Position numbers and translations under genes: made by a program | Notes under the pieces: generated by a model | What the model was told of the DNA's origin: nothing | Seen by the model: only the letters and a program-made list of their open reading frames with translations | The model's database searches: none | In this document: positions 27,228 through 62,190 of the stretch, one piece after another | Layout: the number at the start of each line of letters is the position of its first letter | How positions within the stretch are numbered: the first letter of the stretch is position 1 | Assembly: GCA_037576195.1 (NCBI GenBank) | Contig: CM075102.1 | Coordinates: forward strand, 5,766,001 to 5,830,000 | DNA: 64,000 bases | Direction of reading: 5' to 3' | Origin: Phytoseiulus persimilis | Taxonomy: Eukaryota > Arthropoda > Arachnida > Mesostigmata > Phytoseiidae

Positions 27228-28680
27228 GACGTCTCAGCACATTCTCAAGTGAATCCCCATGTCCTGCCTGATACAGACCACCCGCGGAAGCCGAAGAAGG
27301 CTTTCGAGGGCTTCATGTATACCCAAGCAAGAAAAAGCACGGACGGCAGGCTGCAGTTTCGGAGGTGTCAATATAAAGACACGCGCAAGGCACGACTCCG
27401 CACTAGCGTTGAAACCGGCGGAGTGGTCGAAACGGTCGGGAACCATTCACACGCTCCAGATCCCACAGCCGTAGAGATCACCATAGCTACCGAGGATTTG
27501 AAAGAGAGAATACTCGAAACACAGGAATCCCCAGCCATACTCATGACAAGATTCAACAACGGACTCTCCGGCGCGGCCAAGGGCTGTATGCCTGCTCCCC
27601 GATCCATGAAACGCATGATTGCCCGAGTGCGCAAGGAACACTCACATGCCCCCGCAGTTCCGTTGAACAGGGAATCCATCGTTATTCCTGATAACTACTC
27701 CATGTATCGCACTGACCCCGCGAGACCCGAAACCTCAGAGAACTTCCTACTCGCTGATTCCGGATATGGAGATAGGAACCGAATTCTCATCTTCGGGCGC
27801 GGAAACGTGAAACAGTGGATCCGATACGTCGACAAGATCTTTGTTGACGGAACCTTTTCCCTCGCACCGCAGCAATTCTCGCAGCTCTCCGTAATCCTGG
27901 CAGACCGCGGCGGCTTTGCTGTTCCAATGTGCTACGCGTTGCTGCCAGATAAGCATGAGGCGACGTATGTCAGAATGCTGGACTTACTCAGAGCGAATTT
28001 ACGCGATTTCCGCGCGATCACGATCTCCCTGGATTTCGAGCTTGCTGTGTTGAAGGCTCTCAGGCACCACTACCCAATGGCCGACCGAAATGGGTGCTTG
28101 TTCCATTTGGTGAAGAACGTGAAGCATCACGTTTGTGCGGCAGGCCTGCATGGGCGTTACAAAAACGATTCGGAGTTCGCCTTATGCACCAGAACGATTC
28201 CCGCGGTTGCCTTCGTGCGCCCTGACTTCATCGAGGAGGCCCTAAGCGTACTACTTGAGGTTCTCCCCCAGGAACTCCGTCCGATTTATGATTATTTCGA
28301 GCAGAATTATGTCGGTCGCATCCTCGGCATCAGGTTGGACGGAGCGATCATGAGAGAGGCCTCCCTTCGACATTGATATCTGGTCTGTCTATGATCGAAC
28401 TCTGAATGGAGATGGCCGCACAAACAACTTGCCGAGGCGGCTCAGTGCCGCCTCCAGGCAGAGTTCGCTTGCGATCACCCGTCAATCTGGAAGCTCATTG
28501 ACGGTTTGAGAAACGTACAGCGAAGTCGGGATGGCGACTTGGAACGCTTCGATGCCGGGCGCCTTCCGCCAAAAAAGAGGCGAAAATACATGGACTGCGA
28601 TGCCAACCTTCTCCGCTTGGTCCAAACCATCGACAGGAGGAACCTTGCCGGTTCCCTGAGAGGGGTGGCACAGAACTTCT
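27048..28680 (+). pseudogene. FLYWCH-MULE transposase of MULE-C
   Basis: A long open frame to 28,376 has a degenerate FLYWCH zinc finger at about residues 85-145 (FEGFMYTQ, FRRCQYKD, NHSHAP; the second Cys is lost). The MULE core follows: IFVDGTFSLAP with the first Asp, YALLPDKHEATYVRML, ISLDFELAVLKAL with the second Asp, and NGCLFHLVKNVKHH. The frame then breaks near 28,370. The C-terminal region resumes in other frames, with GRTNN near 28,415 and CDHPSIWKLIDGLRNVQR near 28,475-28,530, up to about 28,680. There is no in-frame ATG near 27,048. A strong donor CAG|GTGAGT at 27,005 and acceptor TTTCAG at 27,227 suggest that a first exon lies upstream and that the listed start is intronic. Confidence 0.82.
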
Positions 28681-31510: not shown

Positions 31511-32509
31511 TCAATCGAGGATATAATCTCCGCCTCTTACAATGACTTCTCTCCAGCGTTCCGGAAGCTTTCCGATCCCTCTCCCGTAGAATTCCGGGGT
31601 CCTCTCTCTTCCGAAGAAGTTCTCCAGGTGTTCTCGAACCTCGTGAACGTTCCTAAAAGCCCGGCTGTTGAGCAAATTCTGGAGGCAACGGAACAGGTGG
31701 TAGTCCGAGGGCGCGAGGTCCGGGGAATACGGGGGGTGCTCCAAGACGTCCCATTGGAAACCGGACAGCAACTCTCGCGTTGCCCTGGCCGTGTGCGGCC
31801 GAGCATTGTCGTGCTGGAAGACGACGCCCGTTCGGTTGGGCAAACGAGGACGTTTGCTAGCTAGAGCGGTTCTGAGTTGCTCCAACTGTCGGCAGTATCT
31901 CGAAGCCGTGATTTTTGTCCCTGATTCGAGGAGCTCGAGATAGACGACTCCCTCATGATCCGACACGACCGACAGGAGGACTTTCTGGGGATGGAGTGTT
32001 GGCTTCGCACAAGCAGCGGCTTCGGTGCCTCTCTGTCTCCAGGACCTTCTTCGGCTTACATCCTGGTACACAACCCATTTTTCGTCACCTGTAACAATGC
32101 GATGCAGGAAGGGTTCTGTTTCTTGCCTGGCCAGATGAGCTGTGGCGATACTGATCCGATCACTCTTGTGCTTTTCGCTCAATTGATGCGGCACCCTGGC
32201 ATCGAGTTTTGGGGCGAAACCGAGCCTGGTGAGATTCCGTCGGATCGCTGAAGCGTCAACGTCGAAATGTTCCGCGCTATCGTCGGTGCCGACCGACGGA
32301 TGGTCAGCGAGATAGGCCATCAACGCATTGTCATCCACTGCTTGGGGCCTGCCCGATCGCGTTGCATCAATCAAGCTCATATCGCCACTTCCAAATTTGG
32401 AGAACCATCTCCTAAATGTTGCTTCAGTTGGAGTCGCTTCCTTGAACACCTGTTCCATTTCACGCCGAGTCTCCGCTGCTGCCTTAACCTTCTTGAACTC
32501 GTACAGCAT
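31511..32509 (-). CDS. Mariner transposase, intact reading frame
   Basis: A 332-codon uninterrupted frame starting with MLYEFKKVKAAAETRREM, the typical N-terminal helix-turn-helix of mariner. The linker-region WVVYQD is followed by the DD34D triad: VTGDEKW, QHDNARPHTA, and YSPDLAPSDYHLF, with exactly 34 residues between the second and third Asp. Length is slightly under the usual 340-355. An AATAAA lies just after the stop (31,504-31,499 on the minus strand). All catalytic residues are present, so it could be functional. Terminal repeats and TA duplications could not be found, so mobility is doubtful. It cuts and pastes DNA at TA sites in the nucleus. Confidence 0.93.
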   Translation of the reverse strand: MLYEFKKVKAAAETRREMEQVFKEATPTEATFRRWFSKFGSGDMSLIDATRSGRPQAVDDNALMAYLADHPSVGTDDSAEHFDVDASAIRRNLTRLGFAPKLDARVPHQLSEKHKSDRISIATAHLARQETEPFLHRIVTGDEKWVVYQDVSRRRSWRQRGTEAAACAKPTLHPQKVLLSVVSDHEGVVYLELLESGTKITASRYCRQLEQLRTALASKRPRLPNRTGVVFQHDNARPHTARATRELLSGFQWDVLEHPPYSPDLAPSDYHLFRCLQNLLNSRAFRNVHEVREHLENFFGRERTPEFYGRGIGKLPERWREVIVRGGDYILD

Positions 32510-32767
32510 CGCGTAACGGATTTCAAGATCACGGCTCGCAATTTCCGGATAATGTTCAGAGCGTTTGGGGAACCTTCAAAATCTGCCAATGACTCCGACG
32601 TGGGACCTAGCGTCGACTGACGGTACTGATGGTGGCGCGTGGAGAACTCTTAGTAAGACATCTCACTGTCCTCAAACGTCCACGTCGCTCCGCGTAGACT
32701 CAACATTGGAAAACAGAACAAGCAGATTCTTCCAACTGGAGCTGCAGGGAGCATTTCTCATGAGATG

Positions 32768-41910: not shown

Positions 41911-42070
41911 TGTTGAGTACTTGGTGTTTTACCCAGAGCAGTCGTCGGCACAGTTTTGGTAATCAGGGAAGACGCCATTCGAGCAAGCGGAGCGGTAGTG
42001 AACTTTGAGCATGATCAACCGCGCACAGGCGATACTGTAGATTACTGAGATAGAAATCGGACGCCTGTAG

Positions 42071-42089
42071 ACTGACGTCTAACGTCAGT
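42071..42089. promoter_or_regulatory. Palindromic CRE/ATF-like site in the LTR
   Basis: ACTGACGT, three bases, ACGTCAGT: a perfect 8-bp inverted repeat with two TGACGT half sites, about 32 bp upstream of the TATA box. bZIP proteins of the CREB/ATF class bind such half sites; binding here is inferred. Repeated in the 3' LTR. Confidence 0.5.
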
Positions 42090-42120
42090 GTTCGCCGTGT
42101 AACTCTCCCCTGTCAGTGAC

Positions 42121-42128
42121 TATAAAAG
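42121..42128 (+). promoter_or_regulatory. LTR TATA box
   Basis: TATAAAAG, followed about 23 bp on by TTCAGT. Probable start of the genomic RNA. The copy in the 3' LTR is at 49,595-49,602. Confidence 0.75.
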
Positions 42129-42287
42129 CCGGAATAAAACTTCAGTGTGTTAGGGGAGCCAAGCATTCTGTCCACTAGAATTGTCGTCTTTATTCAGTAG
42201 CCGTCATCTCTAGGCAAGTCTTGTACTCGCCACCGATCATCTCATCCAGCCGCAGAGGAGCTAGAGCCAGGCCCAAAAGGCTTATCA

Positions 42288-42303
42288 GCGTTATCAGCAC
42301 GAC
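42288..42303 (+). promoter_or_regulatory. Primer-binding site matching the tRNA-Ile anticodon arm
   Basis: GCGTTATCAGCACGAC starts at the first base after the LTR. Its complement, GTCGTGCTGATAACGC, fits positions 26-41 of insect tRNA-Ile(AAU) as I recall it, with G where the gene has A34. A34 is inosine in the mature tRNA and is copied as G. Copia of Drosophila is primed by a 5' half of initiator tRNA-Met cut in the same region, so a half-tRNA primer is expected for the group. Confidence 0.65.
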
Positions 42304-42375
42304 ACACTCAGGTTGAGCTGGTCGGTGGCGTAAGTATACATTGGTGAATCAAGGGAGTCACAGTTCAGCATCACG

Positions 42376-45300
42376 ATGTCAAGACAGCAATCCGCCAGAG
42401 ATGCCCAAGGCCCCCACGGCTTCGTTCACTACGGACTGGACGGTCTCGAAGTTGATCCAGAACCCAGCTCCAGCACATCCGGAGATCCCATCGTGTGTGG
42501 ACCAAGACCACGAGTCGCAACCAACATCATCCTAGCACTCGACGGCAAGAACTACATACCATGGCGCACAGTCATGCCATCCGTACTAGATGGAGAACCG
42601 TATGCCTGGCCTGTAACCATCGGGAAACTCAACCCACCAGCTCCAGATCAAGCAAACACACCAGAGGGCAAAACGCAAATGAAGAACTACACCATCGGAA
42701 ACAGAGCTGCGAGGTACGTGCTAATCAACTCGATACACCCGAATCTCGCCACATCATTATTCCTCGACAGCGCAGATAACATAGCAGCACAGGAGATATG
42801 GCGCCGAATCAAGAACAAGTTCACGCGCGCAACAGGCACAAGGAAAGGCCTGGCACTGTCGAAGTTCATGACGTTCGAATACCAGCCAGGACTATCCGTT
42901 GGCGATAACCTCCTCGCTTACAAGAAAGTCATCTTCGAGCTCAACACAGTTGGAATCAACTTACCAGACGATGTCCAGTGCTCCAAACTTCTAGAGGCGC
43001 TGCCAAGTTCATGGGAACCGTTCCGACAGGGATGGAGCACCCGACTGGACTCGGACAAACATCTGGACACACTGACGGATCTAATCGAAGGAGAAGCCAC
43101 TCGAAGGAACCAAAGTGACGTCAACGAGATCACAGCGATGTTCTTCCGATTCAACCCCTCAAGGAATCAACACTTCAGGAGAAGAAACTTCGCCAGAAGA
43201 TCCAACTACCGAAGAACATCTGTGCAGTCATCCGAAGTGATATGCTACAACTGCAATCAACGAGGACACATGCAATCAGCCTGCAGACTTCCCCGACAAG
43301 GCGCGAATCAACGCAGAGGCGGGTTTCGAGGCAGAGGAAGAGGCAGAGGACAATCGAGAACACTACCGCCGCAAGCCAACATTGCTGAAGCCCTGATCGT
43401 GGAATGCCAGCAAGCCGAAATAAATCAAGCAAGTGCTGAAGAGATATTCGCTGTTGACAGCGGCTCGACCCACCACATGCTAACCAGCCTGAAATGGATG
43501 ACGGACTACAAGCCGTTCGAAGACAACCAAGTGGTCGCACTCGGCGGATCCAACACCCTAAGTGCACAGGGGTCAGGAACCGCAATTGTGCCAGTGAACA
43601 ACGACAACAAGACCGCAACGCTATGTCTAAAGGACGCTCTGTACGTACCCAGGCTTCGCAGAAATCTAATTTCAGTTTCAAAGCTACTAAACGAGAAGTT
43701 TCGTATTTTGGTAACTGAGGAGGCCATCACCATACTCCGAGACAACGATGAAGTTCGAGCTGAGCAACAAAATGGATTGTTCGTGTTCCATGCAAGTGAA
43801 CCAGTGGAGGGAAACGTTGCGAGACTGAAGAAGAAAGTAAGTCTGAAAGCGGTACACGAGATGTTCGCTCACATCAACGTTAAGACCCTCAGGAAAATGC
43901 TGAACCGCGAAGGATACGAGATAATCAATGACTTCGTGAAATGTGACGTATGTACCCAAGGCAAGATGCATCGTTCGAGCAACAGGCCGAAACCCGGGAA
44001 AGTGGTAGCTCCAAGACCAGGGTACATACACGCGGATACCTGCGCTATGCGTAAGAGATCTCTTGGAGGAGCGAATCTGTTTCTCACGCTGACTGACGAC
44101 ATGACTCGGTTTCGAAAAGTGTACTTCTTGAAATCAAAGGATCAAGTGCCTGACCACATCGCGGAGTTCGTCAAATGGTTCCAGAATCAAAGCGGTTTCA
44201 CTGTGTATCATCTCCATTCTGAGGAAGGAACTGAGTTCAAGAATCAGAGAGTGAAGGAGATCATGAGTGCCATCGGAGCTGATGTAAGTTACTCCCCTCC
44301 TTTTACGCCTCAACTTAACGGTATAAGTGAGCGTTTAAATCGATCGTTACTTGACCTGGCAAGGACCATGCTCATCGACAGTGGCCTTCCCAAGTACCTT
44401 TGGGCGGAAGCCGTGAGCTTTTCCGCCCACACGACGAATTGCGTAAAGTTTGTCGAATCAGCCGGGAAGACGCCGTACGAGATGATCATGAGGAGAAAAC
44501 CATACATCGGTCTCATCAGAGCATTTGGCACCGAGTGCAAGTTTTACAACCGCACCCCGCAGAAGGACAAGTTGGACACCAGAGGATTCCCAGGCTACAT
44601 TGTCGGGATCGATGAAGATGGACTCAGCTATCGTGTGTGGTATCCCGAGACCAGACAGATCGTCAGGACAAAGGACGTGAAAGTGAGCACTCCCAGTCCA
44701 CTGGATGGAGGAGTCACCTCAGAGAATGCCGCCGAAGCAGAAGCGCCAGAAGGCAACGGCGAAGAGCAGATCGAAGAAGCCAATCCATCAGCAGATACCA
44801 GAGAGAACGCATCAGCAAGAGAAGAAGCAGCATCCGCGGGCCCCGTGCCGGAAAGAGAATCCTCGAATGAAGGACATGGCGCCGCAGGAGCGGCTGCCCC
44901 AAGTGAAAAACGCAACGAACGGCGCGGGAGATACGAGCTACGAGATCGATCCAAGTTGCGTCCTCCGGAGAGGTACCAGGCCGGCAGCGCACACGTCGCA
45001 GTGTGTGTCAACGAAACTGTAAGCACCGGTGTAAATAATTTGGTTGACGAACCAACATGTTTAGAAGATGTTCACAAGTCCAATTACAGCCAACAGTGGC
45101 TTAGTGCAATGGCAGAGGAGATGGCGTCGCTCGATTTCCACAAGGTTTGGGAGCTCACCGAACTTCCAAAAGGCAAACGCACGGTTGGGAATCGATGGAT
45201 CTTCAAAGCAAAGAAAGACGCCCGAGGTAACATCGAGAGGTTCCGTGCAAGATGGGTCATTCAAGGATTCAGCCAACGTCCAGGTATAGATTTCACAGAG

Positions 45301-46599
45301 CTCTACTCGCCTGTAGCTAGGTTCGATACCATCAAAACAATTCTATCAATAGCTGCCAGGGAGAGATTGATACTATACCAATTCGACGTTAAGACGGCGT
45401 TTCTGCACTCGGAACTGTCGGAGGAAATCTACACGAACCAACCAAAAGGGTTCGAAGATGGAACGAATCGAGTCTGCAAACTCTTGAAGGCAGTCTACGG
45501 CCTTTGTCAGGCATCAAGGGCTTGGAACCTGAAGATCGACCAGGTTCTGACAGGACTTGGACTCACACAGGGCCAAGCTGATCCTTGCGTGTACTTCACA
45601 ATTGGCCCAAAACGAATTTTGGTAGCCTTGTACGTTGACGATGGATTGACAGCGGGATCAGACCAAAAGGTCGTGCAGGAGTTTCTCGGGAACCTCGGTA
45701 AGGAATTCGAAATCACTTCCAGGAAGTTAGAGTTCTTTCTCGGTCTACATGTCGAATCATCAGATGACAACTCCGTCATTCGTGTCCATCAATCAAAGTA
45801 TATCCAAGAACTGCTAGACAGATTCCAGATGTCGAAATGCAAGGAAACAGCAGTCCCAATGGACAACAGCTACAAGTCGAATCCCAGTGACGAAATCGAG
45901 CCAGAACTGCCGTATCGTTCAATTGTTGGTGGTTTGATGTACCTCACGATTGCGACGCGTTTTGACGTCGGTTACGTGGTAGGATACCTGTCAAGGTTCC
46001 TGGATCGTCCCACCAGACGTCTTTGGGATCTCGCATTGAAAGTGCTGCGCTACCTCCAAGGTACCAAGACTTTCGGTCTCCGGTACACGGGGAGCGGTCC
46101 AGAGCTGCTCGAGTGTTTCAGCGATGCAGATTTCGCTGGCGACGAGCAAACGAGACGGAGCACCACTGGATCATTGATTCGGTTCGGAGGTGGAGTCATT
46201 TCTTGGGCGAGCAACCGCCAAGCGTCCGTGACGCTCTCTTCAATGGAGGCGGAGCTTGTGGCCCTCTCTGAGACACTCAAGACCGCGATTTGGACAGCGC
46301 GCTTACTCGCAGAGCTTGGACATCCAGTCGTACCAAAGTTGCTCGTTGACAACCAGTCGACGATCGCTCTTGCTGAGAATCCTTCTTTCCACAAGCGCTC
46401 AAAGCACATCGAGGTGAGACATTTCTACTGTCGAGAGAAACCACAGCGCGGAGAAGTCACAATCCACTATTGCCCGACAGCACAGAACGTTGCTGATATT
46501 CTGACGAAGTGCCTGCCTAGAGAAACGTTCCAAAGACTTAGATCACTTGCAGATGGAAACCCTCAAGATGATGATCGCAGTGTGCGTGATGGCCAGTAG
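42376..46599 (+). CDS. Copia gag-pol polyprotein
   Basis: One uninterrupted frame of 1,407 codons from the first ATG after the primer site. Order: UBN2-type gag (about residues 50-250, LLEALPSSWEPFRQGW); CCHC knuckle from residue 290 (CYNCNQRGHMQSAC); Arg/Gly-rich stretch; aspartic protease, Asp361 in VDSGSTHHM; integrase HHCC from His494 with CDVC; integrase core with Asp554 and Glu652; reverse transcriptase with Asp1004 (FDVKTAFL) and YVDD (Asp1088-1089); RNase H with CFSDADFAGD and SSMEAELVALSE. The order PR-IN-RT-RH defines Copia. Odd point: the second integrase catalytic Asp is Glu616 (HSEEGTEF instead of the usual SDNGTEF), although the 35-residue spacing to Glu652 is kept. Integration by this copy is therefore doubtful, while all other active sites look sound. 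Confidence 0.97.
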   Translation: MSRQQSARDAQGPHGFVHYGLDGLEVDPEPSSSTSGDPIVCGPRPRVATNIILALDGKNYIPWRTVMPSVLDGEPYAWPVTIGKLNPPAPDQANTPEGKTQMKNYTIGNRAARYVLINSIHPNLATSLFLDSADNIAAQEIWRRIKNKFTRATGTRKGLALSKFMTFEYQPGLSVGDNLLAYKKVIFELNTVGINLPDDVQCSKLLEALPSSWEPFRQGWSTRLDSDKHLDTLTDLIEGEATRRNQSDVNEITAMFFRFNPSRNQHFRRRNFARRSNYRRTSVQSSEVICYNCNQRGHMQSACRLPRQGANQRRGGFRGRGRGRGQSRTLPPQANIAEALIVECQQAEINQASAEEIFAVDSGSTHHMLTSLKWMTDYKPFEDNQVVALGGSNTLSAQGSGTAIVPVNNDNKTATLCLKDALYVPRLRRNLISVSKLLNEKFRILVTEEAITILRDNDEVRAEQQNGLFVFHASEPVEGNVARLKKKVSLKAVHEMFAHINVKTLRKMLNREGYEIINDFVKCDVCTQGKMHRSSNRPKPGKVVAPRPGYIHADTCAMRKRSLGGANLFLTLTDDMTRFRKVYFLKSKDQVPDHIAEFVKWFQNQSGFTVYHLHSEEGTEFKNQRVKEIMSAIGADVSYSPPFTPQLNGISERLNRSLLDLARTMLIDSGLPKYLWAEAVSFSAHTTNCVKFVESAGKTPYEMIMRRKPYIGLIRAFGTECKFYNRTPQKDKLDTRGFPGYIVGIDEDGLSYRVWYPETRQIVRTKDVKVSTPSPLDGGVTSENAAEAEAPEGNGEEQIEEANPSADTRENASAREEAASAGPVPERESSNEGHGAAGAAAPSEKRNERRGRYELRDRSKLRPPERYQAGSAHVAVCVNETVSTGVNNLVDEPTCLEDVHKSNYSQQWLSAMAEEMASLDFHKVWELTELPKGKRTVGNRWIFKAKKDARGNIERFRARWVIQGFSQRPGIDFTELYSPVARFDTIKTILSIAARERLILYQFDVKTAFLHSELSEEIYTNQPKGFEDGTNRVCKLLKAVYGLCQASRAWNLKIDQVLTGLGLTQGQADPCVYFTIGPKRILVALYVDDGLTAGSDQKVVQEFLGNLGKEFEITSRKLEFFLGLHVESSDDNSVIRVHQSKYIQELLDRFQMSKCKETAVPMDNSYKSNPSDEIEPELPYRSIVGGLMYLTIATRFDVGYVVGYLSRFLDRPTRRLWDLALKVLRYLQGTKTFGLRYTGSGPELLECFSDADFAGDEQTRRSTTGSLIRFGGGVISWASNRQASVTLSSMEAELVALSETLKTAIWTARLLAELGHPVVPKLLVDNQSTIALAENPSFHKRSKHIEVRHFYCREKPQRGEVTIHYCPTAQNVADILTKCLPRETFQRLRSLADGNPQDDDRSVRDGQ

Positions 46600-47049
46600 C
46601 GCGTCAGAGTACTTCACTTACTCCGACTGCGACACTGATTGCCAGAAGATGAACTGGCCATGTACAATTTCCCAAACGAATGAGAACAACTTTCCATGCG
46701 ACTGCGTAGAGCTCGAGGCGAGCTGTCTCAGATTGGCATCTAGAGATTCGTATGCCTGATCAAGAACAGGACTGCCGTAGGAGGAGAAAACATTTGGATT
46801 CCATACTTCAACCATACGCACCCGTCAACACCATCACCCCCAGTGCCCGATCCTGATCGGAGAAATGGATATTGGTTCAAATTTTTATCAATATATTTCG
46901 TGGTCACAAATGTGATTTCGGTGCTCGCCGGTCTGGTCGTCCTCATAAGATGGATCAGAGGGATTCGAGCGCGTTCATACGCTCGCATGCCTGATCCACC
47001 TCTTGAACAAGAGGATGGACCATACCGACCGACATCCGAAGAGATTTGA
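46553..47049 (+). CDS. Sense-strand small membrane glycoprotein (env-like position), two overlapping frames
   Basis: ATG at 46,553, overlapping the last 47 bases of pol in another frame. The first frame (to 46,759) has a signal peptide (METLKMMIAVCVMASSAS) and eight Cys in about 50 residues. A second frame is open from 46,744 to 47,049 and overlaps it by 16 bases. It holds two N-glycosylation sites (NRT, NHT), a Pro-rich stretch, a membrane segment (LSIYFVVTNVISVLAGLVVL) and a charged tail of about 35 residues. Together they look like one type I membrane protein. How the frames connect is unresolved: an indel in this copy, a ribosomal shift, or splicing (weak donor 46,725, good acceptor 46,843). 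AATAAA follows at 47,088. Its place after pol is that of an envelope gene; no similarity to a known envelope is seen, and I infer no function. Confidence 0.7.
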
Positions 47050-47087
47050 GATGCAACTCTTTCTTGTGAATCTCGTTTTTCCCAAAT

Positions 47088-47093
47088 AATAAA
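47088..47093 (+). terminator. Poly(A) signal, sense
   Basis: AATAAA 39 bases after the glycoprotein stop. It faces the antisense poly(A) signal at 47,135-47,130, so the two transcription units converge here. Confidence 0.7.
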
Positions 47094-47129
47094 ACGCACG
47101 TCTCACTATTTACAAAAGAGATTTGAACC

Positions 47130-47135
47130 TTTATT
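47130..47135 (-). terminator. Poly(A) signal, antisense gene B
   Basis: AATAAA on the minus strand 8 bases after the stop at 47,143. Confidence 0.75.
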
Positions 47136-47142
47136 CGATAAG

Positions 47143-48278
47143 TCAGGCGGAGAAGATCGAGTAATTGGAACAAAGTTTTTGTATCTCGGATACATCTTGT
47201 GCATATGCAGCAAAGTTACGTGGATCATAGTCTCGAACTGACAAATGATCCGGAGTCGGAATGTGCAGAGGGATGACGACACAGCGTCGATCCCTGCGAT
47301 AGATACAGGTCCGCACATACGACATCTGGTAACAGTGATATCTGCGGATATCCAATTGGAATCGCCTGGGTGGTAAAGTCGATGAAATCGGATCGGTGTT
47401 CATTTCGGAACTCGAGAGAGTCGAAATCGGAGCGGCGTCAGTTGTCACCGAATGCGTTGTTGACTTTGGAGAAGTCAAACGCGCGGTTGTGGAAGAAGAA
47501 GGTAGAATCCGAATTGTTGTTGTGGAAACCGGCAGATCCGAAGTAACAACACCCTCGGCAGTAGTCAAAGATGACTGAGTGGTGGTTGTAGTCGGTACCA
47601 TGGGAACCGGAGTCGTCGGACGCCGTGTCGTCACCGACGAAGATGTTGTTGAAGGAGAAGGTGATCGAGTCTGTCCAAAGTACAATCTTTGGATGACAGT
47701 TGTGCGCTCAACGTACCAATGATGAGTCGTCGTCGAAGAACGGAGAGGCCTTGGAGTTGTTGAACTCGGCATCCAACGACGAGTCGTCGTGTGGCGACGC
47801 TCATCATATCTGGTAGCGTGAGTGGTCGTGGCTGGAGAATGACCCTTAGCGGTCTGTTCGGTAACGAACCGATAAGTTGGTGTCGTGAGAATCGTTTTCA
47901 CTGTCGTAGTCGGGTTTGGCGTTGCAGCCGGCGTCGGAAGTCCGACCGTCTGCAGACTCGTGAAATTTCGAGAGCGCACGGTCTCGCGAACCATGCGCTC
48001 CCCCCTCGTGGAGGTTGAGCTCAAGAGGAAAACTGTAGGAGAGTAACGGAAACATTGGAATGCAGCTCACACGGAAACGTAGCCAGGAAATGTAACGAAG
48101 TCTGATACGCACCCGAGTAGACTAGGATTCCGAGAACGACCGTCAATGCAGAAATCACGAACAACAAATATCTTGCCACTCCACGAGTCGCGCGCAGATT
48201 GAAAGCCATCGATCGAACACTCGATTCACTGGTTTGATTCAAAGTGGAATACTCAAGATCAAGTCCTTGGAGTTCCAT
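47143..48278 (-). CDS. Antisense gene B: spliced mucin-like type II membrane protein
   Basis: Exon 1 runs 48,278-48,113 and exon 2 48,032-47,143, giving about 351 codons. Exon 1 encodes a cytoplasmic tail of about 35 residues ending in basic residues, then a membrane segment (YLLFVISALTVVLGILVYS). Exon 2 encodes about 200 residues dominated by Thr, Ser and Pro, a mucin-like stalk expected to be O-glycosylated, and a C-terminal domain with four Cys (C-x8-C-x5-RRC-x7-PxP, then QKLC). The intron follows the membrane segment in phase 1, exactly as in gene A. A shorter 38-bp intron (48,070-48,033, donor GTGAGC) is also in frame but unusually short. It lies wholly inside the Copia, opposite to gag-pol. 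Family unknown. A surface protein is inferred from topology only. Confidence 0.8.
48033..48112 (-). other. Intron of antisense gene B
   Basis: Minus-strand donor GTGCGT and acceptor CTCTCCTACAG; 80 bp, phase 1. Without removal the frame stops at 48,021. Confidence 0.65.
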
Positions 48279-48398
48279 CGTGGAGAGCACGGATCAAGAG
48301 AAGGTAGCTCTCGAGGCGGGGGAAGTTTTTGGAAGTGGCACTCGATGCATCAACACTCATCAAGCAATGTTTAGTGTCAAGACTCCCACTCCCCTTCC

Positions 48399-48412
48399 AA
48401 TTTTTTTTATGC
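48399..48412 (-). promoter_or_regulatory. TATA-like site before antisense gene B
   Basis: GCATAAAAAAAATT on the minus strand about 120 bases before the start codon. Weak match; gene B might instead be spliced from the gene A promoter. Confidence 0.35.
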
Positions 48413-48486
48413 TCCAAGAAAACACTCGAATCTTGGTCACAGAAAGAAAAAAATTCTAAACCGAGCTCATCAGAATACATACTCTA

Positions 48487-48492
48487 TTTATT
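48487..48492 (-). terminator. Poly(A) signal overlapping the stop of antisense gene A
   Basis: On the minus strand AATAAA contains the TAA stop codon of gene A (48,490-48,488). Confidence 0.7.
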
Positions 48493-49030
48493 CGTAACAA
48501 AGGTAGACTTCGAGGTCTCCACAGACGTTGACAAACATCCTCAAAGCGCGCCTCTGGACGCGGCAAACCGCATAGGTTGGGACCGGGACTTCTGCCCGCA
48601 TGAGGAGGCAGCGCCTTGTTGCCGAAGAGAGGCAAACCCAATTCTGGGCCAGACGCTCGCACATGAATTGACGCAAGTCAATTTGCTCCCGGATGACTTC
48701 CTCCAGATGCACAACGCTGGGGAGCGCGGGCATATCTGAATGGGGAACGATTGAGATGATGAGATCGAGAAACAGCAACAGCACATGTCAACAATAAAGT
48801 TCGTTAGTTTTTTTTTGGCCTCACTCACCGACGATGATCCAGACGACGAGGACCAATCCTAACACGACGATCGCAAGGAAGGGACGGTGCCTACCTAATC
48901 TGCGGAATGCCCTCAGGGCTTGCACCAGTCTCCTCGGAATGACGATGACAACTTCATCATCCAAAACAGTCGTGCCGATCACAATTTGACGGTTTTCCTC
49001 GGAAGGGTTGTTGCTGTTGCCTGTGGGCAT
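48488..49030 (-). CDS. Antisense gene A: spliced type II membrane protein
   Basis: Exon 1 runs 49,030-48,829 and exon 2 48,735-48,488; 450 coding bases, 149 residues plus stop. Exon 1 encodes an N-terminal tail of about 50 residues ending in basic residues (RRLGRHR), then a membrane segment (FLAIVVLGLVLVVWIIV). This orientation is type II, with the C-terminus outside. Exon 2 encodes a short ectodomain with six Cys and the signature C-x8-C-x5-RRC-x7-PxP that gene B also has. The start is the ATG at 49,030; a TATA box lies 50 bases upstream. The splice sites are near consensus. Family unknown. Gene B appears to be a paralogue with an inserted mucin-like stalk. Confidence 0.85.
48736..48828 (-). 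other. Intron of antisense gene A
   Basis: Donor G|GTGAGT and acceptor CCCCATTCAG on the minus strand; 93 bp, phase 1, directly after the membrane segment. Removing it joins two open frames. Confidence 0.85.
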
Positions 49031-49080
49031 CTTGATTCTCACTCCGCGAGATTCGGTGATTGAGTGCTCAGAACCACCCC

Positions 49081-49088
49081 CTTTTATA
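49081..49088 (-). promoter_or_regulatory. TATA box of antisense gene A
   Basis: TATAAAAG on the minus strand in CGTATAAAAGGGGG, about 50 bases before the ATG. This gives the antisense unit its own promoter inside the element. Confidence 0.75.
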
Positions 49089-49373
49089 CGATTTTGGCGA
49101 GAGTTTGTCTCGAGATTCGGTCGTATGTCAGTTCAATTGCAAAGCAAATTTCGCGACAAAGATGTCTAGACAGACATCAGCTTGAGGTTTCTCTATAGAA
49201 TTCGAACCATTGAACTGATAAAGTATCTAGTGAAGTCTCTACACATTGCATGTTCGATAGATGCTTCCGCTGAAGAGATCTGTAATCGCGGAATCGCGCA
49301 TCCGAGTAATGTCACATGCAATGTTCCCCACATCAGAAGGTTCCGGCTATGATCTGCGAGCGACTGTTCTGTG

Positions 49374-49383
49374 TAGGAGGGAG
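49374..49383 (+). promoter_or_regulatory. Copia polypurine tract
   Basis: TAGGAGGGAG-like purine run ending one base before the 3' LTR, primer for plus-strand DNA. Confidence 0.75.
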
Positions 49384-49384
49384 C

Positions 49385-49761
49385 TGTTGAGTACTTGGTG
49401 TTTTACCCAGAGCAGTCGTCGGCACAGTTTTGGTAATCAGGGAAGACGCCATTCGAGCAAGCGGAGCGGTAGTGAACTTTGAGCATGATCAACCGCGCAC
49501 AGGCGATACTGTAGATTACTGAGATAGAAATCGGACGCCTGTAGACTGACGTCTAACGTCAGTGTTCGCCGTGTAACTCTCCCCTGTCAGTGACTATAAA
49601 AGCCGGAATAAAACTTCAGTGTGTTGGGGGAGCCAAACATTCTGTCCACCAGAATTGTCGTCTTTATTCAGTAGCCGTCATCTCTAGGCAAGTCTTGTAC
49701 TCGCCACCGATCATCTCATCCAGCCGCAAAGGAGCTAGAGCCAGGCCCAAAAGGCTTATCA
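49385..49761 (+). repeat. Copia 3' LTR
   Basis: Matches the 5' LTR with four transitions clustered in its right 170 bases. Supplies the AATAAA for the genomic RNA at 49,607-49,612. Confidence 0.97.
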
Positions 49762-54300: not shown

Positions 54301-54618
54301 CCGTCGACCGCCCGAATGCATTCATCCAAAACAGAGTTCGGAACATCTGACGTTCATCGAAAAGACGTACACCCCCGTCGCTATATAAGGCAGAACCATA
54401 TGTTATCTCATTCGCGTGTGAGTGACATCAGTGAAAAGTCAGGTATTAGTGTGGAAATGAATAATAGAGCAAGTTAAGGCAGAGACCTAATGAAATCAGT
54501 GCGCAATGTTGTATCACGGTACATGTCTTTGAAGAAAGACTTGAGCTTCGTATAATGACGAATTGAGAAATCCGTTTCTTTGATTAACAGATACTGAAAA
54601 GCTTCTTCATGTGAAGTA
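51331..54618. other. No recognisable gene
   Basis: Short frames only. Two minus-strand frames, 52,532-52,230 and 53,530-53,234, have fairly protein-like composition, but no motif or supporting splice sites were found. Confidence 0.5.
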
Positions 54619-54620
54619 TA

Positions 54621-55471
54621 CAGGGTGTGTCCTCTAAGCTGCAACATTTTCGTGGCCTTCCTGTTTTGGGCTGTATTTCGGTCAAATTTTATCCGATGTG
54701 GGAATTTTTTTGTTGATCGAAAGCTCTTGAAGAGACGCATCTTTTCGCTCCATTATTTTTGATCATCAGATCAGTGTTGAGTTTTCCAGAGGATGTCGAA
54801 GTTTTCCTCAATTCAATCCATGGTCCCTGAAAGAACTAACCAGGAAATCGCCGATTCTCAACCGATTTCGGAAATTAAAATACGGAAAGATTCCCCTCGA
54901 ACCCAGCTACAAAACGCTCGCAAGAACGCGCGGATCGGTTGCGAACCGGAGGAACGGTATTCAATACGAGATACCCCAAAATTGAGCCTCCCGGACCCCT
55001 CCAGTAAAGAACTGCCTGTAACTCCTCAGGGAAGCCGATTTCGGAAATTTCACTGATGGCGAAAGTTTCTTATTTTGAGCCAAACTACCCGGAAACGAAG
55101 TCACCGAGTCGATCCGATAACTTTTTTTTTCCACCTCAAAAGTCACTGGGCGCTCATCTCATTGACGCGCGTTCTTGCGAGCGTTTTGTAGCTGGGTTCG
55201 AGGGGAATCTTTCCGTTTTTCAATTTCCGAAATCGGTTGAGAATCGGCGATTTCCTGGTTAGTTCTTTCAGGGACCATGGATTGAATTGAGGAAAACTTC
55301 GACAGGCTCTGGAAAACTCAACACTGATCCGATGATCAAAAACTCCTCCGATACGTCTCTTCAAGAGCTTCCGATCAAAAAAAGAAATTCCCACATCGGA
55401 TAAAATTTGACCGAAATACAGCCTAAAACAGAAAGGCCACGAAAATGTTGCAGCTTAGAGGACACACCCTG
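54621..55471. mobile_element. Palindromic Tc1/mariner-like MITE
   Basis: 851 bp between TA dinucleotides (54,619-54,620 and 55,472-55,473), with ends CAGGGTGTGTCCTCTAAGCT and its inverse. Arms of about 300 bp are nearly perfect inverted copies. CAGGGTGT ends and TA target fit the IS630-Tc1-mariner group. No transposase. Confidence 0.85.
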
Positions 55472-55473
55472 TA

Positions 55474-55793
55474 TAGGAGAGGGGTTGGGGAAGGATATCC
55501 GATGACGATGGGATGAGGCCTTAGAGTCTGGCTGGCGTCATAACGGGGCGGTGCACCTTATCGTCAGAATTTGGATGCGAGTGACAGTATGGAGGGGGTC
55601 AAAGTTGGGGTAAATCGCGAGGGGGGAGGAGGGGAGGGGGGAGGGGTGTGTGGCCTATGTCCTTCCCGGAGAGCCGCCCTACAAAACGCAGTTTGTTCCA
55701 AGTCGATCCGATCAATACCGGAGGAGCCTATTGAGGACAAACAAACATACATACATACAAACAAACAGACCCTGGATTTTTATATATATAGAC
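55474..55793 (+). repeat. S unit 1
   Basis: About 320 bp. Shared landmarks: TATAGGAGAGG start, GATATCCGATGACGATGGGA, GGCGGTGCACCTTATCGTCA, a G-rich tract, GTTCCAAGTCGATCCGATCA, an (ACAA)n tract, and a GGATTTTTATATATATAGA end. Three more copies lie at 62.2-63.2 kb. Confidence 0.9.
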
Positions 55794-55975
55794 TAGCCGG
55801 CCTTCGGCCGACTACGCTGGCCGACCCGCCCCTTGCTTCGGGAGTCTACTGCTGACAGACACACATTGCCTTACATGTAGTGTCATGAGACCTTCGGGAG
55901 TGGCCACCGATTCTTGATAGGATTCTGACCTGGAATCCAGGCACTTTCCTCTCTTTTCACTTAGTCAGCATCATG
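55794..55975 (+). repeat. E unit 1 header
   Basis: Starts CTAGCCGGCCTTCGGCCGAC and ends at GTTTCGAGAAGTA. The same header occurs at about 60,566-60,755, in both cases just before a 45-bp array. Confidence 0.9.
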
Positions 55976-58900
55976 GTTTCGAGAAGTATGCTCAAATTGG
56001 TCTCAGAATCACCCCTCCAAAGTTGGAAAGTAATGGCCAGATTGGTCTCAGAATCATTCCTCCAAAGTTGGAAAGTTATGGCCGGATTGGTCCCGGAATC
56101 ACCCCTCCAGAGTTGGAAAGTAATGGCCAGATTGGTCTCGGAATCACCCCTCCAGAGTTGGAAAGTAATGGCCAGATTGGTCCCAGAATCACCCCTCCAG
56201 AGTTGGAAAGTAATGGCCGGATTGGTCTCGGAATCACCCCTCCAGAGTTGGAAAGTAATGGCCGGATTGGTCTCGGAATCACCCCTCCAGAGTTGGGAAG
56301 TAATGGCCAGATTGGTCTCAGAATCACCCCTCCAAAGTTGGAAAGTAATGGCCGGATAGGTCCCGGAATCACCCCTCCAGAGTTGGAAAGCAATGGCCGG
56401 ATTGGTCTCGGAATCACCCCTCCAGAGTTGGAAAGTAATGGCCGGATTGGTCTCGGAATCACCCCTCCAGGGTTGGAAAGTAATGGCCAGATTGGTCTCG
56501 GAATCACCCCTCCAGAGTTGGAAAGTAATGGGCTTATTGGTCTCGGAATCACCCCTCCAGGATTGGAAAGTAATGGCCAGATTGGTCTCGGAATCACTCC
56601 TCCAGAGTTGGAAAGTAATGGCCGGATTGGTCTCGGAATCACCCCTCCAGGGTTGGAAAGTAATGGCCAGATTGGTCTCGGAATCACCCCTCCAGAGTTG
56701 GGAAGTGATGGGCTTATTGGTCTTGGAATCACCCCTCCAGAGTTGAAAAGTAATGGCCAGGTTCGCCTCGTAATCATCCCTCCAGAGTTGGAAAGTAATG
56801 GCCAGATTGGTCTCGGAATCACCCCTCTAAAGTTGGAAAGTAATGGCCAGATTGGTCTTGGAATCACCCCTCCAGAGTTGGAAAGTAATGGCCAGGTTCG
56901 TCTCGTAATCATCCCTCCAGAGTTGGAAAGTAATGGCCAGATTGGTCTCGGAATCACCCCTCTGAAGTTGGAAAGTAATGGCCAGATTGGTCTTGGAATC
57001 ACCCCTCCAGAGTTGGAAAGTAATGGCCAGATTGGTCTCGCGATCCCCCCCCCCCCCCCAGAGTTGGAAAGTAATGCTCAGATTGCTCCCGGAATCACCC
57101 CTCCAGGTTTGGGAAGTAATGCTCAGATTGCTCCCGGTATCATCCCTCCAGAGTTGGAAAGTAATATCCAGATTGGTCTCGCAATCACCCCTCCAGAGTT
57201 GGAAAGTAATGGCCACATTGGTCTCGGAATCACCCCTCCAGAGTTGGGAAGTGATGGCCAGATTGGTCTCGGAATCACCCCTCCAGAGTTGGAAAGTAAT
57301 GGCCAGATTGGTCTCGGAATCACCCCTCCAAAGTTGGAAAGTAATGGCCAGATTGGTCTCGGAATCACCCCTCCAGAGTTGGAAAGTAATGGCCAGATTG
57401 GTCTCGGAATCACCCCTCCAGAGTTGGAAAGTAATGGCCAGATTGGTCTCGGAATCACCCCTCCAGAGTTGGAAAGTAATGGCCAGATTGGTCTCAGAAT
57501 CAACCCTCCAGAGTTCGAAAGTAATGGCCAGATTGGTCTCGGAATCACCCCTCCAGAGTAGGAAAGTAATGGCCAGATTGGTCTCTGAATCACCCCTCCA
57601 GAGCTGGAAAGTAATGGTCGGATTGGTCTCGGAATCACCCCTCCAAAGTTGGAAAGTAATGTCCAGATTGGTCTCGCAATCACCCCTCCAGAGTTAGAAA
57701 CTAAAGGCCAGATTGGTCTCGTAATCACCCCTCCAGAGTTGGAAACTAATGGCCAGATTGGTCTCGGAATCACCCCTCCAGAGCTGGGAAGTAATGGCCT
57801 TATTGGTCTCGGAATCACCCCTCCAGAGTTGGAAAGTAATGGCCGGATTGGTCTCGGAATCACCCCTCCAGGGTTGGAAAGTAAGGGCCACATTGGTCTC
57901 GGAATCACCCCTCCAGAGTTGGGAAGTGATGGGCTTATTGGTCTTGGAATCACCCCTCCAGAGTTGAAAAGTAATGGCCAGGTTCGTCTCGTAATCATCC
58001 CTCCAGAGTTGGAAAGTAATGGCCAGATTGGTCTCGGAATCACCCCTCTAAAGTTGGAAAGTAATGGCCAGATTGGTCTTGGAATCACCCCTCCAGAGTT
58101 GGAAAGTAATGGCCAGGTTCGTCTCGTAATCATCCCTCCAGAGTTGGAAAGTAATGGCCAGATTGGTCTCGGAATCACCCCTCTAAAGTTGGAAAGTAAT
58201 GGCCAGATTGGTCTTGGAATCACCCCTCCAGAGTTGGAAAGTAATGGCCAGATTGGTCTCGCGATCCCCCCCCCCCCCCCAGAGTTGGAAAGTAATGCTC
58301 AGATTGCTCCCGGAATCACCCCTCCAGGTTTGGGAAGTAATGCTCAGATTGCTCCCGGTATCATCCCTCCAGAGTTGGAAAGTAATATCCAGATTGGTCT
58401 CGCAATCACCCCTCCAGAGTTGGAAAGTAATGGCCACATTGGTCTCGGAATCACCCCTCCAGAGTTGGGAAGTGATGGCCAGATTGGTCTCGGAATCACC
58501 CCTCCAGAGTTGGAAAGTAATGGCCAGATTGGTCTCGCAATCACCCCTCCAGAGTTAGAAACTAAAGGCCAGATTGGTCTCGTAATCACCCCTCCAGAGT
58601 TGGAAACTAATGGCCAGATTGGTCTCGGAATCACCCCTCCAGAGCTGGGAAGTAATGGCCTTATTGGTCTCGGAATCACCCCTCCAGAGTTGGAAAGTAA
58701 TGGCCAGATTGGTCTCGGAATCACCCCTCCAAAGTTGGAAAGTAATGGCCAGATTGGTCTCGGAATCACCCCTCCAGAGTTGGAAAGTAATGGCCAGATT
58801 GGTCTCGGAATCACCCCTCCAGAGTTGGAAAGTAATGGCCAGATTGGTCTCGGAATCACCCCTCCAGAGTTGGAAAGTAATGGCCAGATTGGTCTCAGAA

Positions 58901-60536
58901 TCAACCCTCCAGAGTTCGAAAGTAATGGCCAGATTGGTCTCGGAATCACCCCTCCAGAGTAGGAAAGTAATGGCCAGATTGGTCTCTGAATCACCCCTCC
59001 AGAGCTGGAAAGTAATGGTCGGATTGGTCTCGGAATCACCCCTCCAAAGTTGGAAAGTAATGTCCAGATTGGTCTCGCAATCACCCCTCCAGAGTTCGAA
59101 ACTAAAGGCCAGATTGGTCTCGTAATCACCCCTCCAGAGTTGGAAACTAATGGCCAGATTGGTCTCGGAATCACCCCTCCAGAGCTGGGAAGTAATGGCC
59201 TTATTGGTCTCGGAATCACCCCTCCAGAGTTGGAAAGTAATGGCCGGATTGGTCTCGGAATCACCCCTCCAGGGTTGGAAAGTAATGGCCACATTGGTCT
59301 CGGAATCACCCCTCCAGAGTTGGGAAGTGATGGGCTTATTGGTCTTGGAATCACCCCTCCAGAGTTGAAAAGTAATGGCCAGGTTCGTCTCGTAATCATC
59401 CCTCCAGAGTTGGAAAGTAATGGCCAGATTGGTCTCGGAATCACCCCTCTAAAGTTGGAAAGTAATGGCCAGATTGGTCTTGGAATCACCCCTCCAGAGT
59501 TGGAAAGTAATGGCCAGGTTCGTCTCGTAATCATCCCTCCAGAGTTGGAAAGTAATGGCCAGATTGGTCTCGGAATCACCCCTCTAAAGTTGGAAAGTAA
59601 TGGCCAGATTGGTCTTGGAATCACCCCTCCAGAGTTGGAAAGTAATGGCCAGATTGGTCTCGCGATCCCCCCCCCCCCCAGAGTTGGAAAGTAATGCTCA
59701 GATTGCTCCCGGAATCACCCCTCCAGGTTTGGGAAGTAATGCTCAGATTGCTCCCGGTATCATCCCTCCAGAGTTGGAAAGTAATATCCAGATTGGTCTC
59801 GCAATCACCCCTCCAGAGTTGGAAAGTAATGGCCACATTGGTCTCGGAATCACCCCTCCAGAGTTGGGAAGTGATGGCCAGATTGGTCTCGGAATCACCC
59901 CTCCAGAGTTGGAAAGTAATGGCCAGATTGGTCTCGGAATCACCCCTCCAAAGTTGGAAAGTAATGGCCAGATTGGTCTCGGAATCACCCCTCCAGAGTT
60001 GGAAAGTAATGGCCAGATTGGTCTCGGAATCACCCCTCCAGAGTTGGAAAGTAATGGCCAGATTGGTCTCGGAATCACCCCTCCAGAGTTGGAAAGTAAT
60101 GGCCAGATTGGTCTCAGAATCAACCCTCCAGAGTTCGAAAGTAATGGCCAGATTGGTCTCAGAATCAACCCTCCAGAGTTCGAAAGTAATGGCCAGATTG
60201 GTCTCGGAATCACCCCTCCAGAGTAGGAAAGCAATGGCCAGATTGGTCTCTGAATCACCCCTCCAGAGCTGGAAAGTTATGGCCAGATTAGTCAAGAAAT
60301 CACCCCTCCAGAGTTGGAAAGTAATGGTCGGATTGGTCTCGGAATCACCCCTCCAAAGTTGGAAAGTAATGTCCAGATTGGTCTCGCAATCACCCCTCCA
60401 GAGTTAGAAACTAAAGGCCAGATTGGTCTCGTAATCACCCCTCCAGAGTTGGAAACTAATGGCCAGATTGGTCTCGGAATCACCCCTCCAGAGCTGGGAA
60501 GTAATGGCCTTATTGGTCTCGGAATCACCCCTCCAG
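55976..60536 (+). repeat. 45-bp satellite array 1
   Basis: About 100 copies of a 45-bp unit (GGCCAGATTGGTCTCGGAAT, CACCCCTCCAGAGTTGGAAA, GTAAT). Higher-order copies are visible: a poly-C variant followed by an ATTGCTCCCGG variant recurs near 57,049, 58,264 and 59,665. Because 45 is a multiple of three, long frames stay open in several frames on both strands (for example 56,023-57,561); I regard them as non-coding. Confidence 0.97.
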
Positions 60537-60565
60537 GTATTTCTATGATCGATTTTTATGATGAA

Positions 60566-60755
60566 CTAGCCGGCCTTCGGCCGACTACGCTGGCTGGCCC
60601 GTCCCTTGCTTTGGGAGTCTACTGCTGACAGACACACCTTGCCTAACATGCGGTGTCATCGGGACACCTTCGGGGGTGGCCACCGATTCTCGATAGGATT
60701 CTGACCTGGGATCGAGGCACTTTTCCTTCTCTTCACTGGGTCAGCATTAAGGTTT
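60566..60755 (+). repeat. E unit 2 header
   Basis: Second copy of the header at 55,794-55,975 with scattered differences. It directly follows the short tail ATTTCTATGATCGATTTTTA of E unit 1. Confidence 0.9.
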
Positions 60756-62190
60756 CGAGAAGTAATGCTCAGATCGGTCCCGGAATCACCCCTCCAGAGT
60801 TGGGAAGTAATGCTCAGATTGGCCCCGGAATCACCCCTCCAGAGTTGAAAAGTAATGCTCAGATCGGTCTCGGAATCACCCCTCCAGAGTTGGGGAGTAA
60901 TGCTCAGATCGGTCTCGGAATCACCCCTCCAGAGTTGGGGAGTAATGCTCAGATTGGTCTCGGAATCACCCCTCCAGAGTTGAAAAGTAATGCTCAGATC
61001 GGTCTCGGAATCACTCCTCCAGAGTTGGGAAGTAATGCTCAGATTGGCCCCGGAATCACCCCTCCAGAGTTGAAAAGTAATGCTCAGATCGGTCTCGGAA
61101 TCACCCCTCCAGAGTTGGGGAGTAATGCTCAGATTGGTCTCGGAATCACCCCTCCAGAGTTGAAAAGTAATGCTCAGATCGGTCTCGGAATCACCCCTCC
61201 AGAGTTGGGAAGTGATGCTCAGATCGGTCTCGGAATCACTCCTCCAGAGTTGGGAAGTAATGCTCAGATTGGTCTCGGAATCACCCCTCCAGAGTTGGGA
61301 AGTAATGCTCAGATCGGTCTCGGAATCACTCCTCCAGAGTTGGGAAGTAATGCTCAGATTGGCCCCGGAATCACCCCTCTAGAGTTGGGAAGTAATGCTC
61401 AGATTGGTCTCGGAATCACCCCTCCAGATTTGGGAAGTAATGCTCAGATTGGTCTCGGAATCACCCCTCCAGAGTTGGGAAGTAATGTCAGATTGGTCTC
61501 GGAATCACCCCTCCAGAGTTGAAAACTAATGGTCAAATTGGCACCGGAATCACCCCTCCAGAGTTGGAAAGTAATGGCCAGATTGGTCTCGGAATCACCC
61601 CTCCAGAGTTGGGAAGTAATGCTCAGATTGGCCCCGGGATCACCCCTCCAGAGTTGGAAAGTAATGGCCAGATTGGTCTCGGAATCACCCCTCCAGAGTT
61701 GAAAACTAATGGTCAAATTGGCACCGGAATCACCCCTCCAGAGTTGGAAAGTAATGGCCAGATTGATACCGGAATCACCCCTCCAGAGTTGAGAACTAAT
61801 GGTCAAATTGGCACCGGAATCACCCCTCCAGAGTTGGAAAGTAATGGCCAGATTGATACCGGAATCACCCCTCCAGAGTTGAAAACTAATGGTCGAATTG
61901 GCACCGGAATCATCCCTCCAGAGTTGGAAAGTAATGGCCAGATTGGTCCCGGAATCACCCCTCCAGAGTTGGAAAGTAATGGCCAGATTGGTCTCGGAAT
62001 CACCCCTCCAAAGTTGGAAAGTAATGTCCAGATTGGTCTCGCAATCAGCCCTCCAGAGTTAGAAACTAAAGGCCAGATTGGTCTCGTAATCACCCCTCCA
62101 GAGTTGGAAACTAATGGCCAGATTGGTCTCGGAATCACCCCTCCAGAGTTGGGAAGTAATGGCCTTATTGGTCTCTAAATCACCCCTCCA
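60756..62190 (+). repeat. 45-bp satellite array 2
   Basis: About 32 copies of the same 45-bp family. Most of it uses a TGCTCAGAT variant in place of TGGCCAGAT, and the right part uses AACTAATGGTCAAATTGGCA variants. Array 1 and array 2 have therefore diverged as blocks. Confidence 0.95.

Follow-up and report, generated by a model that had tools for sequence, protein, structure and literature searches.

Copia elements are, to our knowledge, generally considered intracellular. Antisense genes occur in retroviruses, such as HBZ of human T-lymphotropic virus (HTLV) and ASP of human immunodeficiency virus (HIV). Plant gypsy elements carry antisense open reading frames (ORFs) between pol and the 3' long terminal repeat (LTR), the products of which, according to the available part of the report, are without clear relatives and in some cases nuclear (PMC7264820). 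For the sORF2 elements cell-to-cell transfer has been argued, and for 412 short and long isoforms arising by choice of poly(A) site have been described (PMC11952523, available sections); exchange of env-F mutations within rover has also been reported (PMC12992720, available sections). Here we describe a Copia element in the genome of Phytoseiulus persimilis, lying in a window of 64,000 nucleotides (nt; contig CM075102.1, positions 5,766,001 to 5,830,000 of the forward strand; coordinates below are those of the window). Between pol and its 3' LTR, this element bears about 2.8 kb that hold a sense gene, S, and then two genes on the opposite strand, A and B. We suggest that this block is probably an ambisense surface-protein module for cell-to-cell spread.

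Organisation of the element and its three additional genes

The element spans 41911-49761 and is flanked at both ends by the target-site duplication (TSD) TAATG. Its features, with lengths in nt or amino acids (aa) and TM denoting a transmembrane segment, are:

41911..42287, plus strand: 5' LTR, 377 nt, four differences from the 3' LTR; TSD TAATG
42330..42335, plus strand: GTAAGT, a candidate 5' splice site of the leader ahead of the gag start codon; also in all five other leader pieces fetched
42334..46599, plus strand: gag-pol in Copia order, a single stop-to-stop frame of 1421 aa
46543..46552, plus strand: candidate 3' splice site immediately ahead of the S start codon; CTTGCAG there in 27 of 31 copies reported
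46553..47049, plus strand: sense gene S, with a frameshift in the window copy; signal-peptide-like start, then a Cys-rich ectodomain, a TM and a basic tail
47088..47093, plus strand: sense AATAAA downstream of the S stop codon; 23 of 28 copies reported have one within 110 nt
47130..47135, minus strand: antisense AATAAA following the stop codon of A; 25 of 28 copies reported have one within 60 nt
47143..48278, minus strand: antisense gene A, 351 aa; N-terminal TM, S/T-rich stalk, C-terminal Cys domain
48488..49030, minus strand: antisense gene B, 149 aa; N-terminal tail, TM, Cys domain; stop overlapping AATAAA
49082..49088, minus strand: TATA box of the antisense unit, TATAAAAGG from 49088; 20 of 22 copies reported have a TATA[AT]AA word ahead of B
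49385..49761, plus strand: 3' LTR, 377 nt, paired with the 5' LTR

The gag ATG lies at 42376. In gag-pol, Retrotran_gag_2, Pol_BBD, CCHC and RVT_2 scored above the Pfam cut-offs, and rve (E 5.9e-5) and gag_pre-integrs below them; a Copia-type gag, the CCHC motif, an integrase region before RVT_2, TG..CA LTRs and the 5-nt TSD place the element in Ty1/Copia (Pseudoviridae). An initial annotation of this DNA had assigned the block after pol to the element, and the paired LTRs with TAATG on both sides confirm that it lies within these bounds; nor does it look like a separate insertion, as no block ends of its own were seen among the copies examined. A DNA search of the same genome with the block returned 49 rows, several of them pieces of one copy, and 38 stretches were taken from the genome (L001 and L009-L045), among which neighbouring pairs such as L045/L035 and L042/L040 resemble parts of one interrupted element. 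Block sequence, complete or truncated, follows the pol tail in 34 of these 38; the pol tail is missing within the stretch in L035, L039, L040 and L041, and L036 is without most of S. The genome also has 95 matches to the cuticle domain PF00379, which favour an arthropod host, with none in the 14 control genomes; PF01060, searched with a nematode host in mind, matched neither this genome nor any control.

Other copies of the element have S as a single frame of about 168 aa, in which a hydrophobic start is followed by a Cys-rich outer part, then a TM and a basic tail. The best hydrophobic window begins at residue 117 (at 111-124 in S of L010), and basic residues follow the TM in most alignment rows, as judged by eye. 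Of the 35 copies in which S was matched, 15 pass as intact by a length rule (M start, 160-175 aa), L015 among them despite a frameshift near the TM. The sense glycoprotein frame of the initial annotation thus corresponds to a real gene with intact copies, although the window's own S is frameshifted. An intron in S was considered and rejected, because S is a single frame elsewhere and the window copy carries a frameshift. A structure prediction for S (predicted local distance difference test [pLDDT] 80.4, predicted template-modelling score [pTM] 0.49) placed residues 21-90, the ectodomain, at 86-97 and residues 111-140, a long TM helix, at 85-93, with residues 91-110 below 60; S is probably a type I membrane protein. 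The donor in the leader and the acceptor before S form the predicted layout of a spliced env mRNA. S and A converge, with their stop codons ending at 47049 and 47143, respectively, and the sense AATAAA, 41 nt from the first base of the S stop codon, bears out the converging signal at the end of the sense gene both in the window and, by its recurrence, in other copies.

The A frame starts with an ATG at 48278 and is interrupted by an intron at 48112-48033 (80 nt, GT-AG). Its stalk contains 40% Ser+Thr over residues 55-280. Intact spliced A was found in 14 of 28 copies with exon 1, the remainder being truncated, decayed or failing the script's rule; in all 14 the intron is 79-80 nt long, with GTATGT or GTGCGT at its start and CTACAG at its end. 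The AATAAA of A begins 10 nt from the point at which its stop codon starts. A is probably a type II membrane protein with a mucin-like stalk.

B starts with an ATG at 49030 and has an intron at 48828-48736 (93 nt, GT-AG); AATAAA lies at its stop in 20 of 22 copies reported. Intact spliced B occurs in 17 of 28 copies with exon 2 (the others being truncated, decayed or failing the script's rule), and its intron is in phase 1 in all 17 of these near copies, with the proviso that in L019, L020 and L040 the intactness rule chose a GT other than GTAAGT and alternative joins exist. Six cysteines are invariant across nine spliced B proteins. The B domain was predicted with fair confidence as mostly strands (pLDDT 82.4, pTM 0.69), and B is probably a type II membrane protein. 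Hence the promoter, splice and poly(A) signals initially assigned to the antisense genes recur among copies, with a reservation for A, whose TATA-like site (CATAAAA on the antisense strand) is weak.

Coding constraint and kinship of A and B

The three genes S, A and B are under purifying selection. Stop codons per 100 codons of the gene frame numbered 0.03 in A exon 2 (21 copies), 0.07 in A exon 1 (25), 0.21 in B exon 2 (24) and 0.25 in S (26), partial matches (13 for A exon 2, 8 for B exon 2, 9 for S) having been left out. The other five frames of S, A and B DNA contain 0.8-6.4 stops per 100 codons; for the antisense genes the comparison is 0.03-0.21 versus 1.9-5.2. Differences at codon positions 1/2/3 were 0.347/0.211/0.620 in B exon 2, 0.107/0.089/0.164 in A exon 2, 0.094/0.120/0.178 in A exon 1, 0.053/0.043/0.113 in S and 0.052/0.038/0.103 in pol, with 0.537/0.299/0.545 in B exon 1 (two pairs only).

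Ratios of non-synonymous to synonymous change (dN/dS) were calculated according to Nei-Gojobori (NG86) as medians per dS bin, with copies containing stops included. Median dN/dS was 0.11-0.38 for B exon 2 (0.17 in the largest bin, with 46 pairs and a median dS of 2.3), 0.37-0.52 for A exon 2, 0.28-0.46 for A exon 1, 0.13-0.42 for S and 0.20-0.32 for the pol tail. The higher values of A may stem partly from decay after insertion and partly from a loose stalk. In B exon 2, dS from the window copy was beyond correction in eight of nine comparisons printed; six cysteines and the phase-1 intron are kept despite these saturated synonymous sites. Thus, in other copies of the element the frames are kept with dN/dS below 1, and the decay at neutral rates that would have spoken against the initial annotation did not occur. 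Taken together, these patterns argue firmly that the antisense frames code for protein.

Each of A and B combines a short inner tail with a single TM, has a phase-1 intron where the TM ends and carries a C-x8-C-x7-C domain. Their domains matched in an hhalign profile comparison (E 3.3e-6, 43 columns, probability 88%), and B exon 2 matches the end of A by tblastn. These likenesses indicate that A and B are paralogues.

Searches of Pfam and PHROGs yielded no convincing family, the best, chance-like E values being 0.0023 (one of 19 S members) and 0.008 (B). PDB sequences contained no match for the Cys domain. For S, no Pfam model scored above its cut-off and the best PDB sequence reached E 0.17; no sequence relation to a known envelope protein emerged. 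A search of 5.8 billion proteins returned none for B or the end of A; for S it returned 13 relatives from public assemblies (P0001-P0013), all without a name, of which P0001 is nearly identical to S of L052 and the remaining ones, less closely related, may belong to other species. Among viral contigs searched for S, 35 stretches fit a pattern and none was confirmed. The structure predictions and profile searches called for by the initial annotation produced models for the B domain and S, but no named family.

Age of the layout and exchange between copies

S has at least 151 matches in this genome, ranging from near copies to sequences of 29% identity. Of these, 141 rows were carried over into a count of the S-A layout, nine short fragments or second pieces being left out. 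Among the matches listed, 71 of the 141 rows have A 87-311 nt downstream in the opposite orientation to S, and none has it on the same strand; the convergent pair is seen in 27 of 33 near and 44 of 108 distant rows, the distant S being 29-43% identical. S is listed within 3.5 kb downstream of 88 of the 150 Copia reverse transcriptase (RT) matches listed. Some A-like matches have no listed S nearby (C2:7455236, C1:18142996, C4:261257, C2:5894646); they are truncated elements or something else.

Among 14 distant loci, the A end could be read by eye in ten and a B-like domain in eight, or nine counting a weak match in L057; the near-family B exon also finds distant B exons at the expected places, weakly (E 0.003-0.05). 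Antisense frames bearing the Cys motif occur in L049 and L052; the antisense frame of L050 has no such motif, and the block of L051 contains gypsy-like sequence. Several loci (L054-L057, L059) have A as an uninterrupted frame of 472-555 aa, together with a long first exon of B that looks coiled-coil-like by eye. All five distant loci tried (three families) allow a phase-1 GT-AG join at the TM, and three of them allow joins in other phases as well. As the S-A layout, and B where looked for, is common to families with S only 29-43% identical, the layout is old in the lineage. The initial annotation had proposed a surface-protein cassette acquired by the element: place, frames, introns, signals and predicted topology fit a cassette belonging to the element, but "acquired" implies too recent an event. 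The distant loci contain further frames: L052 (1596-976) and L050 (1686-1036; both oriented, antisense) have frames of similar appearance, 207 and 217 aa long, which as judged by eye may represent a third type of antisense gene, and L049 (1112-2095, sense) has a 328-aa frame, coiled-coil-like by eye, between S and the antisense frame with the Cys motif.

Given the age of the layout, what moves now is the cassette between copies. Identity profiles in 150-nt windows were drawn for copies versus the window copy. L013 and L023 are 98-100% identical to it in the pol tail (pol being 99% identical over 2.2 kb) and, from 49150 to the end, 97-100% and 94-97% identical, respectively. In these two copies S and the end of A fall to 83-89%, the A stalk and first exon to 69-83%, and B to 37-59%, a level at which it is not truly alignable as DNA and only a protein alignment can be made. 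Within the cassette, L011 shares only the end of A with the window copy (96-99%). L009 matches it across the whole cassette (96-100%) and differs in the pol tail (93-96%) and 3' end (86-93%). Approximately unbiased (AU) tests on trees of 16 copies agree with the profiles: pol rejects L001+L009 (p-AU 0.0014) and L014+L029 (0.003), and B and A reject the pol pair L009+L014 (p-AU <1e-60), p values that are weakened by the choice of groups after the trees were seen, an unsettled pol bootstrap and long branches in the B tree. Since B genes that can be aligned only as protein occur in copies whose pol is 99% identical, the data indicate that the cassette is exchanged among copies by recombination. 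The likely route is template switching between co-packaged RNAs, a process reported for rover in Drosophila (PMC12992720, available sections).

Proposed role and comparison with known systems

We regard it as somewhat better than an even prospect that the block represents an ambisense accessory module, old in its arthropod Copia lineage and maintained by selection, and that the products of this module would form a surface complex for cell-to-cell passage. Sense RNA would encode Gag-Pol, and an LTR-driven mRNA spliced from the donor at 42330 to the acceptor before the S ATG would encode S, in the manner of retroviral env. A and B would be transcribed by RNA polymerase II from the internal antisense promoter, and from integrated DNA only. 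Their introns would survive retrotransposition, since they do not read as introns in the sense genomic RNA; a retroelement could keep introns in this way because those on the antisense strand stay in its sense genomic RNA, which may explain the antisense placement of the spliced genes. In the complex, A and B would bind a partner on another cell and S would join the membranes; stalked type II proteins together with a type I protein recall the attachment and entry partners of enveloped viruses. Element particles could thereby cross from cell to cell, for instance from soma to germ line. Swapping of the A/B stalk and the B gene on one backbone would reflect selection for new partners or for escape from the host or rival elements, and the recurrent sense AATAAA behind S could give short mRNAs alongside the full-length genomic RNA. 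More tentatively, and as a possibility we put below an even chance, the elements could form an ambisense, virus-like arthropod Copia lineage, candidate infectious Pseudoviridae with two antisense receptor-type glycoproteins made from the integrated form only and reshuffled like interchangeable heads between co-packaged genomes.

Several points weigh against a surface-complex module. No A was detected beside 64 of the 108 distant S rows among the matches listed, and 62 of the 150 Copia RT matches listed have no listed S within 3.5 kb, so that Copia elements without S may exist in this genome too. Genomic RNA would be cut short at the sense AATAAA behind S if this signal were not read through. 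The frame controls are biased towards copies free of frameshifts, as entry was restricted to single tblastn stretches covering at least 90% of a gene. Constraint on A exon 2 is moderate, and B exon 1 evolves fast (dN/dS 0.53, two pairs). Finally, A, B and S are without a relative of known function in Pfam, PHROGs, PDB sequences and the 5.8-billion-protein search.

Some of the same evidence could be read differently. A and B might be real proteins that act on the cell which makes them, serving the element at the cell surface in superinfection exclusion, copy-number control or immune decoy; their strong variation and exchange on one backbone would suit such roles, which would favour changing variants too, as would the presumed restriction of their expression to integrated copies. 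We consider this unlikely: a surface complex fits better because S, with its signal-peptide-like start, TM and env-like acceptor, adjoins A and B in the same lineage. That the antisense unit acts as RNA (by double strands, as a small-RNA trigger or by promoter interference), with the frames as by-products, seems improbable in view of the protein-level constraint, fixed cysteines and intron phase maintained in the face of saturated synonymous change, even though the units converge with closely spaced ends and antisense RNA regulation has been discussed for plant elements (PMC7264820, available part).

Recently captured host genes would account for the introns and own promoter, which resemble those of genomic genes, and for A matches with no S listed beside them (for example C2:7455236 and C4:261257). 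We deem such a capture very improbable, as the pairing of A with S in 71 of the 141 rows among the matches listed, in near and distant families alike, makes the association old, and no relative of A or B was found outside the mite's own genome in the 5.8-billion-protein search. Chance open frames in a fast-evolving spacer, to which the low complexity of the A stalk might point, have next to no probability, being in our view ruled out by stop counts, dN/dS, codon positions, conserved signals and intron phase.

Elsewhere in the window, a Mos1-type mariner transposase frame of 354 aa (HTH_48, Transposase_1) lies at 31514-32575 (minus strand), MULE transposase domains at 27009-28373 (plus) and 10967-11863 (minus; just below the Pfam cut-off), an ISXO2-like transposase domain at 19162-19926 (minus) and a second Copia gag fragment, below the Pfam cut-off, at 16399-17133 (minus). 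Long open frames of up to 546 aa occupy both strands of 55921-62175, four of which were searched against Pfam and gave only a sub-threshold Hexapep match, and 54617-55475 holds two nested inverted repeats with arms 96-97% complementary.

No animal Copia element with antisense spliced membrane proteins was found in the open-access literature searched, and the word "antisense" does not occur in a crustacean Copia paper (PMC3587641) or a broad LTR survey (PMC2774666). The plant aORF-3R elements resemble the surface-protein module proposed here in their conserved antisense ORF between pol and the 3' LTR and in the own promoter upstream of Grande gene23 (PMC7264820). As described in the available part of that report, they are set apart as Ty3/gypsy elements, whereas the present element combines a Copia pol and an arthropod host with two paralogous, spliced genes for TM and Cys-domain proteins and a sense gene. 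HTLV HBZ and HIV ASP are likewise antisense proteins from a provirus, but in the descriptions available their transcription starts from the 3' LTR, a layout distinct from separate genes with an internal TATA box.

S resembles the sORF2/FAST-like proteins of 412 and its kin, short TM proteins with a basic tail in LTR elements without a classical Env (PMC11952523), and is itself a short TM protein with a polybasic juxtamembrane patch. The N-myristoylation motif MGxxxS/T, a search criterion of that paper, was seen by eye in none of the 19 S rows of alignment A5. In addition, S has a signal-peptide-like start and a Cys-rich ectodomain, unlike sORF2, and the available sections describe sORF2 candidates as all forward and do not mention antisense partners. 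Bdelloid rotifer LTR elements with ORF3 also have small TM ORFs after pol, of uncertain env-like role; these are retrovirus-like LTR families, for which the available text mentions no antisense spliced genes (PMC5408684).

Insect errantivirus env (Env-F) shares with S the position of a membrane protein downstream of pol, and with the cassette the template-switch recombination between variants (PMC12992720, in part). S differs in being small and without a detected sequence relation to known Env, and A and B differ in being antisense; moreover, the Env-F tree mirrors pol between lineages in that report, whereas cassettes of close copies differ deeply here. If the proposed role is correct, an env-like module arose in Copia too, with a coding plan, two paralogues spliced on the antisense strand, for which the literature searched gave no description in animals. 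This plan suggests a way for retroelements to retain introns, and soma-to-germ or horizontal spread of Copia elements becomes directly testable. Cassette exchange on near-identical backbones recalls the antigen or receptor-binding genes of viruses.

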